From Metarhizium brunneum (lineage: Eukaryota; Ascomycota; Sordariomycetes; Hypocreales; Clavicipitaceae), in assembly GCF_013426205.1 (NCBI RefSeq), contig NC_089422.1, positions 496,001-560,000 of the forward strand: a DNA stretch of 64,000 nucleotides, in the 5' to 3' direction. Each line of letters begins with the position of its first letter. The stretch's first letter is position 1. Shown here piece after piece: positions 17,125 through 36,719 of this stretch. Below the pieces are notes generated by a model. It was not told where the DNA came from and did not search any database. It saw nothing but the letters and a program-made list of their open reading frames with translations. The position numbers and the translations under genes are program-made.

Positions 17125-17400
17125 GCTAGCAAGCAACCAGCCTCTGCTAAATCACAAGGATATAAAGAGCCTCTTTCCGAGCTAGCAAGCAGGTATTCCT
17201 GCCTCTGACTAGATTTACGGGAGGTTATAGCCTCTTTCTGTACTAGTAAGCAGGTAATCCTGCCTCTGAATAGATTTACGGGAGGTTAAAGAAGCCTTAC
17301 AGCGCTAGCAAGCCGGTATTCCTGCCTCTGACTAGGTCCTGTGGAGGTCATAGGAGTATTTTCGCGCTGGTAGTCAGACCCCCTGATACTAGGTCCTGCG
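17125..17400 (+). repeat. Tandem repeats of about 61 bp inside the mini-element
   Basis: About four and a half degenerate copies, each with GCTAGCAAGC, then GCCTCTGACTAG, then a GGAGGTTA-like box. Copies begin near 17125, 17181, 17242, 17303 and 17365. They fill most of the internal region. Confidence 0.7.
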
Positions 17401-20328: not shown

Positions 20329-20525
20329 TGTGACAAGGGCTCGATTAGAGGGCTTGGAGCAATTTGGCTCAATCATCTAATAACAGTCTTTGATATCAAA
20401 GGTCCTTGGTTTTCTTTAAGGCCTCGTTGACTAACGGGGTCTTTAAATACAAGAAGTCGGTGAGGGACTTTGCCCTAGGTCTCGTGACCGTAGACCTTGT
20501 ATAACAGAGCCATTTCCGTGTAACA
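20329..20525 (-). mobile_element. Solo LTR directly after the F-box stop codon
   Basis: In reverse orientation it starts TGTGACAAGG and ends CCGTGTAACA. The flanks are GGTAA (20324-20328) and AGTAA (20526-20530), a 5-bp duplication with one G/A difference. AATAACAGTCTT (reverse complement of the presumed transcript start) is at 20379-20390. The element supplies all sequence downstream of the F-box stop. Confidence 0.75.
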
Positions 20526-21169: not shown

Positions 21170-22512
21170 GGTGTTGTTGATGTCAAATCCCACTCAACTC
21201 GATTCCTTGCAGCCGTTATTAACGTGGGTTGGCATCCACGGGCGTTATTTTTAACGTGATCTGTCTCCTTATTCCACACGATGCAGTACCCGACCGCCTC
21301 GTCGCCGTCTCGTTGCCATTGTCGTCGTCGTTATTGGTCTCGTCGTGGCCGCCGCCTTGTTAGGAAAGGACGGAAGCTATCTGAGTTAATTCGTGCGCAG
21401 AAAAGGCTACTGCCATCTTATTAGCGGAGCTTGTCCCTTCCTCCAGTCAAGCTTCTTTGTGCTAGGCAACAAGACTGTCCGCTGTGTAGCAGGAAAAAAA
21501 TTGTGAGAGGAGACAAGGCCAGGCCAACAAACCTTCTTTTGTCCCTCCTTCAAACGAGATGCTTCTTGTGGTTGCTGATGGTGTCGAAGGCTATCGTTCC
21601 TCTCTTTTGTTTTGTATTGTGGTGATTTGGGCGAAGACGTTGTTAATTTGCCTCTTTCCGCCGAAAAGAACGGAATTCCCTTGTCCAAGTTTACCTTTGG
21701 CGTATCGTCAATCTTGGCGGTGCGGGTCGGATGCGTCGCCACATGCAAAAAAGAGCATGGTGCCAAAGTAAAGAAAATGACATGCTCTTCGCTCCGTGAG
21801 GATGGAATCTTGGCTGGATACCGTGCCATCATTTGCTGTATGGTGTCTAATGGCTGGCAAAACGCTGGTTTTGTCCACAAGCCCCGAGCTGGTCCACGCG
21901 ATGGAGTTGTGAAGTGGTTTGCAATAGCTCGGAACAAAGGGCCCAAGTTTCATCGTAAGGAAGCGGGTGCTGTTATGACTGGCATTTAAACAGCGCAAAA
22001 TAGACAATACCCAAATGTCTGGCCGGTCCATGTCTCCTTAAGTGAAGTCTGGCGCCGACTGGCTACAGCTGCCTTATTTGTGCCACCAGCTGTTGACACT
22101 TGACGCCATAATAGCTTAAGCTGCCACTTAATAAAGAGACTTGGGCCGTATTTGGAGCAGAGACCAAAGGCCAGAGCGACCGGAGGAGGGATAAAATATT
22201 TTTTCGCACTCATCCAGCTATTTGCCTGGTATACTACGATATCGTCAAATATATTTGGAAGTGCATGGGCATATTCCACGATACAATGCATACCATGCTG
22301 CAAACCAAAGGTCAAGACGATGAAGCGATTCGTCAATACCATGTGAAATCCAGACGTGCTCTTGCCGTCCTCGCATGGTCTGGTGCGCTCGGTCCTCGTC
22401 CGCCTCCTGGCAAAGGGACAAGGAAAGGACAAGGAAAGTCCTCTTGCCTGGCACGAACAAGTTTTACGGGAGGAAGGAAGGAGACCTGCTGCCGAGAAGA
22501 CAGTAGCCTGCC
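21170..22512. other. Spacer with inverted repeats, no supported gene
   Basis: 21173-21262 is the upstream/spacer repeat of unit M1. A segment at about 21435-21475 (CCTTCCTCCAGTCAAGCTTC) has a diverged inverted copy at about 22435-22480. Long open frames exist on the minus strand (21407-21946 and 21986-22567) but begin with non-ATG codons and show no known domain; their overlap with equally open plus frames makes coding unlikely. Confidence 0.35.
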
Positions 22513-22930
22513 ATGAGCAAGTTCGGTCGGTTTCTGTCCTGTTCCAACGAGATCGCGACAACCACAACCCCCATCATCGCCGTCACCGTCATCATCCTCA
22601 TTGTCTTCGTCCAACAACAACCATAGCACCATCACCACCACCAGCCACGATGATGGAACCGAGAGAAATCGCTCTCACCGTCATCGGGGCCATCACCATT
22701 GCCTTCGCGGCGTTCCAGCTTGGCCTCAACTAGAGCCCAGGAGAAGCGCTGTATGTGCAATGCACGAATCCATTATTATTCTATCCAAGGTAATATCAGA
22801 TTCCCCAGTCTTAGAGAAAGTCTCCTGCATGCACCCATCATTACTACAAGGTTTGACATTGGATAGAGTAGGGAAACAGGCTCGGGAGTGCGCGGCACGA
22901 TGCGACGACGGCGACAGCAGCGACCTATTC
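22513..22930 (+). pseudogene. Micro-exon family unit P1 (hydrophobic leaders, decayed heptad exons)
   Basis: Starts with CTGCC-ATGA like the other units. A 37-codon frame (22513-22626) encodes a short leader plus a strong hydrophobic stretch (PIIAVTVIILIVFV) and stops at TAG. A second ATG at 22650 opens MMEPREIALTVIGAITIAF, ending QLGLN-TAG (22731-22733). Downstream a donor GTATGTGCAATGCACGAATC matches the first intron of units P2-P4. A 21-nt-like exon (LEKVSC) follows an AG acceptor near 22809, but its donor is corrupted and later pieces are degenerate. Exon A ends in phase 2 rather than 1. It could still express the small hydrophobic peptides. Confidence 0.4.
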
Positions 22931-22944
22931 GACTCGCCTACATG

Positions 22945-23069
22945 TGTCTGACCCGTGTTGAGTAGGCAGACCATCACGTCGAAACAGCACCCGTGGATGC
23001 CAACCCGCGTTAACAACAGCTGCAAGGGATCAAGTTAAGGAGATTCAATATTGTTAAGGCATTCTGCCC
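22945..23069 (+). promoter_or_regulatory. Spacer repeat and conserved upstream block of unit P2
   Basis: One copy of the roughly 70-bp spacer repeat (GTGTTGAGTAGGCAGACC, then CCCGTGGATGCCAACCCGCG) followed by AACAACAGCTGCAAGGGATC, AAGTTAAGGAGATT and TTCTGCCC just before an ATG. The same block precedes units M1 and P3, with the same spacing to the ATG. It is the best candidate for a shared promoter or 5' UTR. Confidence 0.5.
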
Positions 23070-23357
23070 ATGAAGCCGACGACGACGACAAAGACGATGA
23101 CGATGAGGGACTACACCGGGGCGGTGTCCACAATCATCGGCGTTTTATACGGCGCATCCCGGATAGTGCTCGACACTTTCACCATCACCACCAACTACCA
23201 ACCACCACCGTCACCCGTCCCCGTCCCCGTCCCCGTCCTCAGCAGTAGCAGCAATAACAACACTACTACCACCACCACCGACGACAACGACGACGATGAC
23301 GATGACAGGGAGGGATTACGCCGTTGCGGTGGGCGTTATTATTGGTATATTTTATAG
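23070..23357 (+). CDS. Short hydrophobic, Thr/Asn/Asp-repeat peptide of unit P2
   Basis: An ATG right after the conserved block opens 95 codons: a Lys/Thr lead, a hydrophobic segment (RDYTGAVSTIIGVLYGASR), then Pro-Val repeats and runs of Ser, Asn, Thr and Asp. The Thr/Asn/Asp part is built of trinucleotide repeats and has a homologous counterpart just before unit P4 (25660-25814). A nested ATG at 23307 opens MTGRDYAVAVGVIIGIFY, matching the leader of P4, before an LTR fragment interrupts it. It may be an intact small gene or only the broken 5' part of an older unit; I cannot tell. Confidence 0.35.
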   Translation: MKPTTTTKTMTMRDYTGAVSTIIGVLYGASRIVLDTFTITTNYQPPPSPVPVPVPVLSSSSNNNTTTTTTDDNDDDDDDREGLRRCGGRYYWYIL

Positions 23358-23397
23358 ATGAGTTGAGTAAATTGCTCCAAGCTAGGCCCTTGTCACA
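23353..23397 (+). repeat. LTR 3'-end fragment
   Basis: TAGATGAGTTGAG, then CTCCAAGCTAGGCCC, then TTGTCACA matches the last 45 bp of the LTR family. Only the 3' end is present, and it truncates the hydrophobic frame from 23307. Confidence 0.7.
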
Positions 23398-23463: not shown

Positions 23464-24456
23464 ATGGACTTGAGAGACATCTTTCTGACGGTCTTCGGGG
23501 CCGTCACCCTCTGCCTCGGGTCGTTCCAGCTTGGCATGAATTAGGGGTCAGACAAGCGGGCGAAAGAGAAGCACGGTACGTACGATGTGTGACAAGGGCT
23601 CGGAAAGAGGGCTTGGAGCAATAGCTCAATTCAACTAATAACAGTCTTTGGTATCAAAGGTCCTTAGTTTTCCTCAAGGCCTTGAGGGACCAAAGCCGTC
23701 TATTTATACAAGAAGTCGGTGAGGACCTTCTGCCCTAATCCCGTGACCGTAGCCCTTTGTGTAACAGGGCGATTTCCGTGTAACACGATGCACGAATCCA
23801 TCATGACTCTATTGATTCTAACGTTGGATTGTACAGAAAAGAAGTGCAAGAAATTGGGCAAGTCTTATACACGCATCGGTTATCGTATGTCATTGGTTCT
23901 AACGTTGATCCCACAGACTTGGAGATTGCAAAGCTGGGTAAGCCCCATACACGCATTTTTTTTTATTGTATTACTGGTGCCAACATTGATCCTGCAGTCA
24001 AGGACGAATTCAAGCGGGGTAAGTCCCATACACGGATTTTTTGTTATGTTTATTAATTCTGATAATATATAGAGCTGGAGCAGCGAAAGCTTGGTAAGTT
24101 TTATGCACTTATATATTACAATGTTTATTTGTTCTAATAATTCATAGTTCTGGAAGTAGACAAGCTGGGTCAGTCTAATGGACACATCTTCCAGTCTTTT
24201 ATTCGGCGATTTAACAATAGACAATGGCAGAGTACGACGCCGCCCAGCGGCAGCAGCAGCAACAGCAGCAGCCGCTGCCTCCCTCTCCCCCTTCTCCTCC
24301 TTCTCCCCCCTCTCCCCCTCTCCCCCCTCGCCTCATCTCCCCTCCCCTCCTCCCCCCTCACGCCCTCTCCCGCCTCCCTCACCTCCCTCGCCTCCCTCGC
24401 CTCGTCTCCCCTCACCTGTCACCGCCCCTAATGGCAGGATTCCATGGCGTTGCTAG
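23464..24456 (+). CDS. Micro-exon gene, unit P2: hydrophobic leader, five 21-nt heptad exons, Pro-rich tail
   Basis: No known family. Exon A (23464-23575) opens with ATG, encodes a hydrophobic segment (MDLRDIFLTVFGAVTLCLGS), meets TAG at 23542-23544, then stays open in the same frame (KRAKEKH) to a phase-1 donor. Five exons of exactly 21 nt follow: 23837-23857, 23917-23937, 23998-24018, 24073-24093, 24148-24168. All are phase 1-1 and encode (E)KKCKKL, (D)LEIAKL, (V)KDEFKR, (E)LEQRKL and (V)LEVDKL. The donor after the first is GC-type (GCAAGT); introns are 52-60 nt with CTAAC/CTAAT branch sites. The last exon (24221-24456) continues in frame as NGRVRRRP, poly-Ala and a Ser/Pro tail, ending at TAG. 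The first intron holds a solo LTR. Alternatives: two separate ORFs around the TAG, or a pseudogene. Confidence 0.5.
23588..23785 (-). mobile_element. Solo LTR in intron 1 of unit P2, TSD CGATG
   Basis: Reverse orientation, 198 bp, TGTGACAAGG to CCGTGTAACA, flanked by a perfect CGATG duplication (23583-23587 and 23786-23790). The paralogous intron of unit P3 (24788 on, GTACGTGTAATGCACGAG) shows the uninterrupted site. The TATA box (reverse TATTTATA, 23701-23708) and AATAACAGTCTT (23637-23648) keep the 60-bp spacing seen in the mini-element. Confidence 0.9.
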
Positions 24457-24617
24457 GTCAACCCCCCGGATGCCAACCCGCGTAAACAACGGTAACGTGT
24501 TGAACGAGCAGACAAATCACGTTCAAAAAAATATTACCTGTAGAGGCTAGCCCACCTCAATAACGGCTGCAAGAGATCAAGTTGAGGAGGATCCGACATC
24601 GTCAAGGCTTTCTGCCC
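24457..24617 (+). promoter_or_regulatory. Spacer repeat and conserved upstream block of unit P3
   Basis: Directly after the P2 stop (GCTAGGTCAACCC) comes one spacer copy (GGATGCCAACCCGCGTAAAC, then AACGTG and later CACGTT), then the block AATAACGGCTGCAAGAGATC, AAGTTGAGGAGGATCCGACA, TTTCTGCCC and ATG at 24618. Same order as in front of P2. Confidence 0.5.
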
Positions 24618-24865
24618 ATGAGTCTTGACGCCGACAGCGAAGACAATAATAATAGAAGAGAGGAAGAACGTCTCTGTGACGGTATACAGCGCCGTAACCG
24701 CCGTTCATAAGGTGGACGGGTGGTACTTGAACTAGAAAGCGGACCGCTAAGCAATCGCGGCAGAGGACCAGGCGCGTGAGAAGCACGGTACGTGTAATGC
24801 ACGAGTCCATCGTTACTCAATTATTCTAACGTTAGATTCTACAGAGAAAGAAATGAAGAAGTTCA
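24618..24865 (+). pseudogene. Micro-exon family unit P3, truncated
   Basis: The ATG at 24618 is out of frame with the leader homologue. In the leader frame one reads KNVSVTVYSAVTAVHKVDGW, then YLN-TAG (24733-24735), KADR-TAA, and AIAAEDQAREKH to a phase-1 donor at 24788. The first 21-nt exon follows an ACAG acceptor (from 24845, EKEMKKF) but has no donor, and similarity ends there. A deletion or rearrangement apparently fused it to unrelated sequence. Confidence 0.5.
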
Positions 24866-25814: not shown

Positions 25815-26496
25815 ATGCTGACAGGGCGGGATTACGCCTTTATAGTCGGCGTAATTTTGGGGCTTTTTTGGGGCGTGCCCCGTGTCGTGTTCGACTAGAA
25901 ATCGAACACCCGGGCCGTCGCGGCCGAAGCCCGGGCCGTCGCGGCCGAGGAGCGGGCCAAGGAGGCCCATGGCTGGGCTGCAGAAAAGCATGGTATATAT
26001 TACACACGAATCTATTATAGTGGATCGAAGTTGACACCAGATTTCACAGCCCTCGACGTTATGAAGTCCCGTAAGTCTCATGCATGCACCTATAATTCTT
26101 TCTCTTGGTTCTAATATTACGCAGGGCTGGAGATCAAAAAGCTGGGTCAGTCTATTGCATACATCCATTTTCAGTATTGTACTTGGCGATTTAACATGAG
26201 ATAATGGCAGCCGACGAGGAGGAGGAGAGGGAGGAGGAGAAGAAGAAGAAGAAGAAGAAGGAGGCCCAGCTCCGCCGCCGCCGTCGCTTTCGCCGTCGCC
26301 TCGCCCCCCCCCGCCTCCGTCGCCGCCGCCGCCGCCGCCCCTGCCACCACCACCACCACCACCACCACCTCACCCCCCGTCGCCCCCCCCGTCGCCGCCC
26401 CCGCCACCGCCGCCCGCCCCCGAGCCCCCGCCACCGCCGCCCACGCCGCAGCCCGCGCCCGCAGGGCTTAATGGGTTGGACCTAGCTCTTAGCTAG
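25815..26496 (+). CDS. Micro-exon gene, unit P4: hydrophobic leader, two 21-nt heptad exons, Glu/Pro-rich tail
   Basis: The second well-preserved member. Exon A (25815-25992) encodes MLTGRDYAFIVGVILGLFWG, then VPRVVFD and TAG (25896-25898). The same frame continues as seven-residue repeats (RAVAAEA, RAVAAEE, RAKEAHG, then WAAEKH) to a phase-1 donor GTATAT. Two 21-nt exons follow (26050-26070, 26125-26145), coding (A)LDVMKS and (R)LEIKKL. The last exon (26201-26496) reads NGSRRGGGEGGG, a Glu run and a long Pro/Ser tail, and stops at the TAG of GCTAGGTCAACCC, the same boundary as P2. Keeping the phase-1 frame is what yields the Pro tail in both units, which supports the model. Function unknown; a membrane-tethered coiled coil with a proline-rich tail is inference. 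Confidence 0.5.
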
Positions 26497-26965
26497 GTCA
26501 ACCCGCGGATGCCAACCCGCGTAAACAACGGCCGTGTTGAATAGGCAGACAAATCACGTTAAAATCTTAACACCCGCGGACGCCAACCCGAGACAACAAC
26601 GGCAACGTGAGAAGAGGGTGACAAATCACGTTAAAAAATAACCCCCGCGGATGCCAACCCGCGTGAACAACGGCCACGTGTTGAATAGGCTGATAAATCA
26701 CGTTAAAAAATAACACCCGCGGAGGCCAACCCGCGTTAATAACGGCCGTGTTGAATAGGCAGATAAATCACGTCAAAAACTAACACCCGCGGATACCAAC
26801 CCGCGTCAACAACGGTAACGTGTTGAACAGGCAGACAAATCACGTTTAAAAAAATAACACCCGCGGAGGCCAACCCGCGTTAATAACGGCCGTGTTGAAT
26901 AGGCCGACAAATCACGTCAAAAACTAACACCCGCGGAGGCCAACCCGCGTCAACAACGGCTTCGA
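26497..26965 (+). repeat. Array of about 6.5 tandem repeats of about 70 bp (family spacer)
   Basis: Units begin CCCGCGGATGCCAACCCGCG and contain AACAACGG, AACGTGTTGAATAGGC, ACAAATCACGTT and an A-rich end. AACGTG and CACGTT within a unit are inverted repeats about 20 nt apart. Single copies of the same unit lie between M1/P1, P1/P2 and P2/P3. After the last unit the sequence becomes CGGCTTCGAAGGAGGGTTCG, a diverged version of the upstream block, but no unit follows. Confidence 0.85.
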
Positions 26966-32434: not shown

Positions 32435-34408
32435 TTATTTTCTCCAGCTGTTTGTCTCGGAGACTTTGGACGCAACGCCGCTCAACTCGGGTTCTTTTTC
32501 CGCCATGTTCTCCTTCTTCTCCCTGATTACTTTCCAAGCCGGCACGCTCTCCGTCACCCGGAGGTGCTGCCGTGCAAAGAAGACTGCGTACTGGTAAATG
32601 GTCCAATATACGCTCGCCACCGTCACAAACGTCATGACAAACTTGATGACGAAAAAGGCCGGAAACGCCAGCCAGGAGACTCGCTCATTCTTGGAACTCC
32701 CTCGTCTTAGAAGACTCAGATGAATCACGTTGAACCAAATGGAGAGCACAAAATTCGCCAAGATGGTTCCGAACCACAAAATCAGCGTCAAGCGCCAGTG
32801 GGCTATCATGGCGACGGGGAGGAAGACCGGGGTGAACAGTTTGATGAGCGTGTCGTAGATTTCTCCCAAGACGTACATCTTTGTAATGAGGACTCGCCAG
32901 CCCAGGCGCCAGCTGAATATCAGATACAAGGTGTTTGCCCAGATGCGAAAGAGGTAGAAGAAGCTCCAGCGGAAGAAGCGCTGCTGGACGACGGACATTT
33001 CGCCGTAGCCACCCCTCGAGTCTTTCGCGCGACAGAAGAACCAGTCCGGGAAAAGACGCGGCGGGGTCTCGGTTTCGACAAAGACCGACGAGCTCATGAG
33101 GATGCGGTAGCCGGCAGCTCTCGCCGTATGGCCGAGCCACCAGTCCTCGGAAATGCTGTACCCCGGATGAGCGCGCAGAATCTTCTCCAGAACATCGCGG
33201 CGCCACAGCGCAATAGCACCATGCGGGAAGACGGTGCTGCCGTACTTGGACTGAAACACCTTGGTCAATCCCGCGATCTTGTACTCGAGATCCTGGGCCT
33301 GCTGGACGATTGTCCCGCGAGACGAGTTCGACCCCACGCTCTTAATGGTATACCCAACACACGCGACGTTCTCGTGGCCAGGGCCATTGAACCACTTTGT
33401 CAGTATGGGCAGGCTGGGGGGCAGCAGGACGTCGTCGTCTATCAGCAGGCAGTACTGGAACTCCTTGCCCAGCGTCACGCCGACGAACTCGGCGGTGATC
33501 TTGCTGCCGACGGGGAGCCAAAAGTGCCGCACGCCAAACTCGTCGCATATATCGGCCGTGTTGTCCAGCGGCACGGTCGAGTTGCCGTTAGCCACGACGA
33601 AGATTTGCTTGGGGCCGAATATCGCCAGGCACGCGGGCAGCGTGGTGCGCAGCGTCTCGGCCGCCTTGTAGCATGGGATGATGACGCAGCACTGGGACAC
33701 GGCCGACTCCTCGGGTTCCCTTGGTTCTTGCCGGGAGACTTGGAAGGTGCAGAGGAACTGGGGCAGGATATTGCGAATCATGCCCGCGGCGAGAAAGGCG
33801 ACAAGGCCCGCGATGTGATGCTGGCCTACCTGGCCTTGGTACCAGCGCCAGAACCAGACCACGGTGCCGGGCCAGAGGGGCCAGCCGACGAGGACGAAGT
33901 AGATGAGCGCGGCGAGGAGTAAGAAGTAGAATGCCCTGAAGGCCATCTTTGCTTTGAAACTAGGTACCGTGTGTTTCTGCTTGTCGTCCATGAGCCTTGT
34001 CAGTGTCTCGAATTCGGCATCATCGAGGGTTGGTTGCTCAAAGGGCAGTTTCTTCGTCTTATTCATGATATTCCTGACCATGTAGCGCGGCGAATTTGAC
34101 GACGTGGCGTGGAAGGGTTTAAAGTCGGTGTATTTCGCCTGGTTGGGCTTCTGCGGCCATGGCTGGACGTGCTCGACTCTGTCCTCGGAAGAAGGACGCG
34201 CATCATGGTCGTGTTTGGCAGCAAAAATCTCACTCGAGGCAATAACACCACCGCCATCAGGGCCGTGAGTTGAGTCTCTGTCGGAAAGGAGCGGCGAATC
34301 TTGCGACTTGTCACACGGCAAGAAGGCAGCTTGCGGCCGTGTCACGCGCAACTCAGACTCATCTTGCTCACAGCTTTCTCTGCCTAACTTGTGAGTTGCT
34401 GAAGACAT
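32435..34408 (-). CDS. Processive family 2 glycosyltransferase (CPS1/GT2-like polysaccharide synthase)
   Basis: A 657-residue intronless membrane glycosyltransferase. After a polar N-terminal region (about 150 residues) come membrane segments at about 158-180 and 195-215, then the GT-A catalytic domain with VIIPCYKAAETL, the metal-binding D324-D326 in LLIDDDV, the acceptor motif SEDWWLG and the processivity motif QQRFFRW (475-481). Four to five further membrane helices follow. This is the architecture of hyaluronan, chitin and cellulose synthases, and closest to the fungal CPS1-like group, whose members in plant pathogens are needed for hyphal growth on solid surfaces. It would polymerise a UDP-sugar and extrude the chain. 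The divergently transcribed neighbour is a UDP-sugar 6-dehydrogenase, pointing to an uronic-acid-containing polymer. Confidence 0.88.
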   Translation of the reverse strand: MSSATHKLGRESCEQDESELRVTRPQAAFLPCDKSQDSPLLSDRDSTHGPDGGGVIASSEIFAAKHDHDARPSSEDRVEHVQPWPQKPNQAKYTDFKPFHATSSNSPRYMVRNIMNKTKKLPFEQPTLDDAEFETLTRLMDDKQKHTVPSFKAKMAFRAFYFLLLAALIYFVLVGWPLWPGTVVWFWRWYQGQVGQHHIAGLVAFLAAGMIRNILPQFLCTFQVSRQEPREPEESAVSQCCVIIPCYKAAETLRTTLPACLAIFGPKQIFVVANGNSTVPLDNTADICDEFGVRHFWLPVGSKITAEFVGVTLGKEFQYCLLIDDDVLLPPSLPILTKWFNGPGHENVACVGYTIKSVGSNSSRGTIVQQAQDLEYKIAGLTKVFQSKYGSTVFPHGAIALWRRDVLEKILRAHPGYSISEDWWLGHTARAAGYRILMSSSVFVETETPPRLFPDWFFCRAKDSRGGYGEMSVVQQRFFRWSFFYLFRIWANTLYLIFSWRLGWRVLITKMYVLGEIYDTLIKLFTPVFLPVAMIAHWRLTLILWFGTILANFVLSIWFNVIHLSLLRRGSSKNERVSWLAFPAFFVIKFVMTFVTVASVYWTIYQYAVFFARQHLRVTESVPAWKVIREKKENMAEKEPELSGVASKVSETNSWRK

Positions 34409-35441: not shown

Positions 35442-36719
35442 ATGCCCGCGCCGATCCCAATCTCTCCATCCACCGAGGTTCTGCTTCGCTGTTCCGAGGC
35501 CGCCGACGTGCGGCTACAGCAATACACCAAGGGACCTCGGGAAGCCGAGATTGTCGTGGCCGTCGTCGGAGTCGGCTACGTCGGGAGGCGGCTTGTGCAG
35601 TCCTTTTCGACCCAGTTCAAGGTCATTGCCTACGACATCTCGTCTGCGACGCTCCGTTCCGCAAGACGTGAGCTGTCCAGCGGCGCCAATGTCAAGTACA
35701 CGACGTGTCCGATGGACATGAAGCAGGCTACTCACTTTCTGATATCCGTGCCAACTCTGGTCAACACAGACGCATCCATCAATACAACACATATCAAGGA
35801 CGCCATCAACACCGTGGCCACAGTTGCTCAACAGGGCTCGACTGTTGTCCTAGAGAGCTCTGTAGCCATCGGCATGACGAGAAGCCTCCTCGGCCCTATT
35901 GCCGTCTCATACGGCTTGTATGCCGGCATGTCTCCGGAGCGCGTGGACCCTGGCCGCACGAATCCCCCGTGCGCGAGCATTCCCAAAATTATATCTGGAC
36001 TTGACGACGCGGTGCCGGGCTCGCTCGCCTCCATCGAGCAGGCATATGGACAGGTATTCAGCAGGCTGGTCCCGGTTTCTTCCCCCGAGGTGGCGGAGAT
36101 GACTAAACTCTACGAGAACTGCCAACGGATGATGTGTATAGCCTTTGTGAATGAGATGGCTGATGCCGCTCTGTCGCACGGCATTGATCCATATGAGGTT
36201 TCAAGAGCCGCCGCCACCAAACCCTTTGGATATGCGCCCTTCTCACCGTCGGTGGGCGTCGGTGGTCACTGCATCCCCGTAAACCCTTACTATCTATTAT
36301 CCAATAGCTCTTTTCCGCTCTTGCAGGCCGCCACGGAGGCCATGGCCGCCCGCCCGGCACAGATTGCCAGGCGAACTGTGGAGGATTTGAAGCTTTCAGC
36401 TACCATGGATGGCTTAGAGAAAGGTCGAGTCCTTGTTGTGGGCGTGGGCTTCAAGGCCGGTCAGTCAGTGTTGAGTTATTCCCCCGGCGTGGCGCTCTTG
36501 AACGCGCTGCATGAGCAAGGACAGGTTGAAGTGAACTTTGCCGATCCTCTTGTCTCACAAGAGGACCTGCCTCATGTCACACGGCTGAGTGAAGCTGAAT
36601 GGAACCAGAAAACCTTGGAAACATTTGACGCCATTATTATATGCGTGAAGCAGCCCGGCCTGGATTATCAAGTTTTACAACACTTGAGCGGTGTAAGGGT
36701 TGACATTTGGTGCGAGTAG
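35442..36719 (+). CDS. UDP-sugar 6-dehydrogenase, UDP-HexNAc (WecC/TviB) type
   Basis: A 425-residue nucleotide-sugar dehydrogenase that would oxidise the C6 hydroxyl of a UDP-sugar to a carboxylate in two NAD+ steps. The NAD-binding motif VVGVGYVG lies near residue 40, the central domain has MTKLYENCQRMM, and the catalytic Cys277 is in VGVGGHCIPVNPYYLL. The GGHCI-P/A-V-D/N-P loop is the signature of UDP-ManNAc/UDP-GlcNAc dehydrogenases; UDP-glucose dehydrogenases have FGGSCF-x-KD instead. One position is N where D is usual. The gene is intronless and head-to-head with the GT2 gene. This enzyme type is mainly bacterial, so horizontal transfer into fungi is possible but not shown. Confidence 0.87.
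   Translation: MPAPIPISPSTEVLLRCSEAADVRLQQYTKGPREAEIVVAVVGVGYVGRRLVQSFSTQFKVIAYDISSATLRSARRELSSGANVKYTTCPMDMKQATHFLISVPTLVNTDASINTTHIKDAINTVATVAQQGSTVVLESSVAIGMTRSLLGPIAVSYGLYAGMSPERVDPGRTNPPCASIPKIISGLDDAVPGSLASIEQAYGQVFSRLVPVSSPEVAEMTKLYENCQRMMCIAFVNEMADAALSHGIDPYEVSRAAATKPFGYAPFSPSVGVGGHCIPVNPYYLLSNSSFPLLQAATEAMAARPAQIARRTVEDLKLSATMDGLEKGRVLVVGVGFKAGQSVLSYSPGVALLNALHEQGQVEVNFADPLVSQEDLPHVTRLSEAEWNQKTLETFDAIIICVKQPGLDYQVLQHLSGVRVDIWCE

Follow-up and report, generated by a model that had tools for sequence, protein, structure and literature searches.

The 54-bp exons of collagen genes are a familiar example of how a repeat-protein gene grows when symmetric exons are duplicated in tandem. Consecutive very short exons are found in the MEG genes of Schistosoma, where, according to the available part of one report, exons of 3 to 81 bp are separated by introns of up to 5 kbp and the products are secreted (PMC10526429). 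In Trichoderma virens, a single regulated micro-exon is described for the transcription factor Xlr2 in the accessible text of PMC11121469. About 70 genes of F. graminearum besides PUK1 need a UAG-to-UGG correction, as stated in the portion available of PMC11156358. Here we describe an array of 21-nt micro-exons, a real and unusual case of tandem exon duplication, in a 64-kb window, positions 496001-560000 of chromosome 1, of the genome of Metarhizium brunneum ARSEF 4556. A literature search, with most subscription journals outside its coverage, revealed no fungal example of equal, symmetric micro-exons in an array. Judged from the DNA alone, the array probably belongs to a lineage-restricted tandem family that grew at a single locus by head-to-tail copying of an exon-plus-intron module some 75-80 bp long.

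The array lies in a gene-like unit on the forward strand, termed unit B, and consists of five consecutive AG-[21 nt]-G(T/C) segments between positions 23837 and 24168, all in phase 1-1. The predicted micro-exons read (E)KKCKKL (23837-23857, followed by a GC donor, GCAAGT), (D)LEIAKL (23917-23937), (V)KDEFKR (23998-24018), (E)LEQRKL (24073-24093) and (V)LEVDKL (24148-24168). Upstream of them lies exon 1 (23464-23575), with a 26-codon ORF that has a hydrophobic, membrane-helix-like stretch, a TAG, seven further codons and EKH; it ends at a phase-1 donor, GTACGT, which opens intron 0 (23576-23836, 261 nt). The last exon (24231-24456), rich in Gln and Pro, has an end frame unlike that of Metarhizium robertsii. 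If spliced as read, the exons would give EKKCKKL DLEIAKL VKDEFKR ELEQRKL VLEVDKL and then, in frame, EYDAAQRQQQQQQQP, with which the last exon begins. With 21 nt in phase 1-1, every further copy of the exon would lengthen the product by seven residues (x-L-E-x-x-K-L) and keep the frame.

The five segments had been pointed out in a preliminary description, and they were borne out at their exact positions. The chain of five, the longest in the window, was compared with the longest chains of 150 simulated 64-kb windows (second-order Markov), which were of length 1 in 33, 2 in 106 and 3 in 11, and never above 3. Chains reached at most 2 at 35 loci, each of about 3 kb, from other parts of the genome. 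It is extremely unlikely that the array is due to chance, or is a non-coding tandem repeat with meaningless AG/GT borders. Such an origin would fit with a second open frame in the joined exons of unit B (two of the three frames are open), and the borders are not independent because adjacent modules are related repeats. However, the donor and acceptor motifs are found again in copies that have diverged, and the M. robertsii protein described below implies identical borders and an identical peptide; on the strength of this protein and the simulations, chance or a simple repeat was rejected.

The introns carry the evidence for duplication of the whole module. Those inside the array of unit B measure 59, 60, 54 and 54 nt, which replaces the range of 52-60 nt given before. 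Of the CTAAC branch sites claimed at the same time, exact copies were found only in intron 0 and in the first of the internal introns; the next three introns have CCAAC, CTGAT and CTAAT. The last intron of the unit (24169-24230, 62 nt, GTCAGT...CAG) is related to the internal ones. Eleven introns of the locus (B0-B5, D0-D2, C0 and A0, named after their units) were compared, and their pairs had a mean alignment score of 11.5 (n=55) versus -0.2 for 4000 control draws. Of the 55 pairs, 31 scored as high as the uppermost 2% of these draws, a tail that is coarse because the pool was small (15 intron-like controls). With 200 shuffles for each pair, 29 of 45 pairs beat 95% of the shuffles and the other 16 did not. 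Among B1-B4, neighbours were most alike (B1-B2 22, B2-B3 24.5, B3-B4 22, all others at most 14). Identity among the introns of the locus was 58-82%, and exon copies matched at 6-15 of 21 bases. Between units B and D, 14 of 21 bases of the last micro-exon and 51 of 62 aligned bases of the last intron were identical; a coding-constraint test between the paralogs found no exon conservation above the intron level. The intervening introns are homologous as a set and between neighbours within B1-B4, and the adjoining exons are of equal length and phase, five in B and two in D, all 21 nt and 1-1. The earlier proposal of a tandemly duplicated exon-plus-intron module, symmetric and 21 nt in its exon, is therefore well supported. 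Also supported is the proposal that copy number can change without shifting the frame, as the exon is symmetric; the paralogs do differ in their number of micro-exons. Introner-like elements were also considered and were rejected: when units B and D were searched as DNA together with their introns, this locus alone was matched, apart from two 36-base hits to the repetitive leader of D, and the introns are no more than 58-82% alike.

Unit D (25815-26210), on the same strand as all units of the cluster, has the plan of unit B with two micro-exons. Its exon 1 (25815-25992) comprises a 27-codon hydrophobic ORF, a TAG at 25896, 28 codons and EKH. The micro-exons, (A)LDVMKS (26050-26070) and (R)LEIKKL (26125-26145), are followed by a last intron of 65 nt (26146-26210) and then by a Glu/Lys-rich exon, with a Pro-rich part in another frame. 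A 21-bp unit is repeated almost twice in unit D with zero mismatches. Two further units are degenerate. Unit A (22650-22808) has a hydrophobic ORF running to a TAG at 22731-22733, 7 nt from that TAG to EKR, an out-of-frame exon end and an intron 0. Unit C (24652-24865) has an ORF without ATG, a TAG at 24733-24735, a further TAA, an intron 0 (24788-24844) and one homologue, of the first micro-exon, which lacks a donor. In addition, two N-terminal fragments, C1 and C2, occupy 23070-23361, the former running into the leader of the latter.

Several other repeats occur in the region. Intron 0 of unit B owes its length to a transposon-like, MITE-like repeat of 198 bp inside it (23588-23785, forward strand, CGATG on both sides). 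A second copy of this repeat of about 200 bp, which has TGTGACA...TGTAACA ends and 5-bp flanking duplicates, is located at about 20329-20525; the repeat made up 45 of the 46 genome matches listed, on contigs C1 to C6, with 40 of 335 first-look candidates scored. Behind unit D lies a 72-bp tandem repeat of 6.5 copies (26501-26960). Its genome matches are all within the cluster, namely behind D, behind B (24463-24567) and inverted at 21212-21280, and a further related copy is present at 22982-23042. A separate 61-bp tandem repeat of about three copies was noted at 17168-17368. Two neighbouring genes code for a family 2 glycosyltransferase (32435-34408, reverse strand) and a UDP-glucose/GDP-mannose dehydrogenase (35442-36719, forward strand), a pairing that resembles the one in hyaluronan-type polysaccharide synthesis.

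When the conceptual protein of unit B was searched against a database of some 5.8 billion proteins, five candidates of suitable length (84-267 aa) shared words with it, and one of them scored, M. robertsii MAA_09782 (185 aa). This protein, which is a gene model and not a transcript, contains LEIAKLVKDEFKRELEQRKLVLEVDKLEYDAAQRQQQQQQQP. From the first heptad on, 57 of 58 residues are identical to unit B spliced alike, and from LEIAKL to QQQP all 42 of 42 are. Heptads 2-5 and 15 residues of the tail are thus unchanged between the two species, and heptads 2-5 are joined at borders identical to those in unit B. At micro-exon 1 the model differs, in that the exon is nine codons longer and extends to a GT donor, which in M. 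brunneum would leave an implausible intron of 32 nt. The model therefore supports micro-exons 2-5 and is ambiguous for the first. The nine extension codons are identical in both species, and this weighs against our preferred reading because a GC-AG intron would not require their conservation. No paper naming MAA_09782 was found in the literature search, and sequence searches of Pfam and PDB with it gave weak matches alone, mostly to the Gln/Pro part. The model has five heptads, as does unit B, and the system of length variation that had been suggested for the array was consequently not supported.

The N-terminus of MAA_09782 corresponds to the C1/C2 ORF, not to exon 1 of unit B; its residues 1-86 match 23070-23330 at 88%, with 10 differences in 86 columns. 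Being annotated in this way, the model speaks for translation of the heptads from a fused C1/C2 ORF that starts at the ATG at 23070, the TAG exon lying inside a long intron. We consider this unlikely for the M. brunneum locus, where it would depend on a weak donor, GTGGGC, and on an intron close to 500 nt long. Also against it, a donor of the form GTACGT, GTATGT or GTATAT recurs after the TAG exon in all four units. Moreover, the 10 differences in the N-terminal columns stand against none in the 42 columns of the heptads. The heptads were less changed than the N-terminus by Fisher's test (p = 0.03, or p = 0.05 once the first heptad and the nine-codon extension are counted).

Several findings stand against the preferred reading of a duplicated module. 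Besides the 16 intron pairs that do not stand out from shuffles, they include the second open frame in the joined exons, the other N-terminus of the M. robertsii model, exon conservation between B and D no higher than that of the intron, and the weak coiled-coil contrast given below; in addition, the tail is read in different frames in B, in D and in M. robertsii, and a TAG precedes the heptads in every unit. The TAG in exon 1 of unit B (23542-23544) had been overlooked in an earlier reading. It is in frame and at an equivalent codon in A (22731), B, C (24733) and D, between the membrane-helix-like peptide and the heptads, and it is of consequence because in unit B no ATG follows it in frame before the Gln/Pro tail. 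The N-terminal ORFs of A, B and D are of 26-27 codons and end in this TAG, with best 17-residue mean hydropathies of 2.08, 1.79 and 2.06, respectively. In an ungapped alignment of the four units, anchored on the TAG itself, it alone among 30 codons was the same in every unit; the Arg/Lys of an RD motif also falls in a single column. Outside the TAG, D agrees with A, B and C at 23-32 of 78 bases, which is near chance. From TAG to EKH there are 21 nt in B, 42 in C and 84 in D, corresponding to 1, 2 and 4 in-frame steps of 21 nt. The frame behind the TAG is kept to EKH in B and D, meets the further TAA in C and is broken in A. From the sequence, the shared TAG may reflect decay, may terminate an independent micropeptide, or may be subject to editing or read-through.

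In the first case, the gene would once have been functional and the copies in M. brunneum would now be pseudogenes, with the TAG, the repeat in intron 0, the shifted tails and the truncated A, C, C1 and C2 as stages of loss. This is possible, if doubtful. It is favoured by the in-frame TAG in four of four units, the extra TAA in C and the out-of-frame exon end in A, and equally by the repeat insertion, by tail frames that are out of step, and by the finding of a single database relative among candidates of 84-267 aa. However, random decay would not predict the TAG as the sole invariant codon, nor heptads 2-5 and 15 tail residues that are unchanged relative to M. robertsii. There was also no clear RIP signature over 23464-24456, where TA/AT was 0.87 versus 0.69-0.72 in long flanks. 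RIP as the source of the TAG was rejected on these grounds, the indices over unit B being not clearly raised.

A working, conditionally decoded stop is quite unlikely on what the DNA offers. Left unread, the TAG would release a membrane peptide of 26-27 residues; edited to UGG, as in fungal A-to-I editing, or read through, it would join the hydrophobic helix to the heptad stalk. The constancy of the codon, always TAG and the sole invariant of 30 in four of four units, would agree with this, as would the spacing to EKH, which in B, C and D is a multiple of 21 nt and keeps the frame. Yet the frame of A is broken after the TAG, C has its TAA, D, outside the TAG, is hardly more similar to A, B and C than expected by chance, and the stop of a plain micropeptide explains the conservation too. 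Fungal editing favours a U at -1 and hairpin loops, according to the available part of PMC11156358. The A of the TAG was in a predicted hairpin loop in all four units with flanks of 15, 20, 24 and 30 nt; at 40 nt it was looped in three of four, C dropping out. Such loops are common, however: of 1170 background TAGs sampled on both strands of the window, 584, 484, 405 and 347 were looped at flanks of 15, 20, 24 and 30 nt, so that the comparison gives only a hint of editing. The TAG of D (25896) is located in the loop of a hairpin with a perfect 8-bp stem, one of two such TAG hairpins on the forward strand of the window, the other (25843) being in the same exon. The stems of the other three units are 3 bp, the four hairpins do not form one conserved helix, and the units are related. 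A combined scheme, in which a membrane-anchored stalk is grown by the heptad module and also joined to its anchor through an edited or read-through UAG, is very unlikely.

Under the preferred reading, that of a duplicated module, the protein would begin with a short membrane helix, followed by a helical stalk and a Gln/Pro-rich tail, and the length of the stalk would be set by the number of micro-exons together with the 21-nt steps within exon 1. Joining of the N-terminal ORF to the stalk, and oligomerisation of the latter, would be part of this arrangement. Over the seven micro-exons of B and D, heptad positions 4 and 7 are hydrophobic in five of seven each, Lys is at position 6 in seven of seven and an acidic residue at position 3 in six of seven. 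The coiled coil suggested in the preliminary description was only weakly supported in its classical form, since a third hydrophobic column, at position 2, departs from a plain a/d arrangement, and the a/d contrast versus shuffles (a = position 4, d = position 7) gave p = 0.06 for the five heptads. For heptads 2-5 the value was 0.40, and for the two heptads of D it was 0.24. AlphaFold2 predicted helices at residues 12-29, 76-91 and 98-142 of MAA_09782 alone, with low confidence (mean pLDDT 48, pTM 0.21), and the heptads are likely to be helical according to this model.

The genome (37,771,916 bases, 7 contigs) was searched for further copies. Units B and D, the N-terminal peptides and MAA_09782 served as queries at the DNA and protein levels, and none of them revealed an array elsewhere. 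Outside the locus, the low-complexity leader of D had two 36-base matches, on contigs C6 and C1; the protein search listed eight matches outside the cluster (best E 0.03), which were taken as low-complexity. The micro-exon pattern, with one mismatch allowed, had 51 genome matches versus 22 for the reversed control. Four of the 51 belong to the array and unit D, one exact match is on contig C3, and no chain longer than 2 was present at the 26 of the 47 outside matches that were examined with their surroundings. A protein-database search with unit D gave nothing among 83 candidates. A padded composite query, for which the length range excludes MAA_09782, gave no match, with 1861 candidates and none scored. 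The family is apparently confined to Metarhizium.

If spliced as read, the array would be an unusually clean instance of protein growth by the smallest useful step, one heptad per exon. As the duplicated introns are still recognisable, the order of duplication could be reconstructed. Micro-exon genes are easily overlooked by gene finders, and one annotated relative was found. In comparison with symmetric-exon repeat genes such as those of collagen, the locus likewise has exons that encode whole structural repeats, equal phases and copies arranged head to tail; it differs in that its exons are 21 nt and code for a single seven-residue repeat, and in that its introns are short and still related. 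With the Schistosoma MEG genes, as described in the part of their report available, it shares consecutive very short exons and a lineage-restricted family. Unlike there, the micro-exons are all 21 nt, the introns are 54-65 nt (261 nt with the repeat), and the product, as predicted, appears to be membrane-anchored. Like Xlr2 in the accessible account, it is a case of micro-exons in a filamentous ascomycete, but arranged as a tandem array of equal units. The in-frame UAG with a coding frame behind it resembles that of PUK1 and AMD1, so far as these are covered in the available part of PMC11156358; in contrast to them, the TAG here is common to the paralogs of an orphan family and its editing is hypothetical, and the shared codon offers a direct test case for conditional decoding in an insect-pathogenic fungus.
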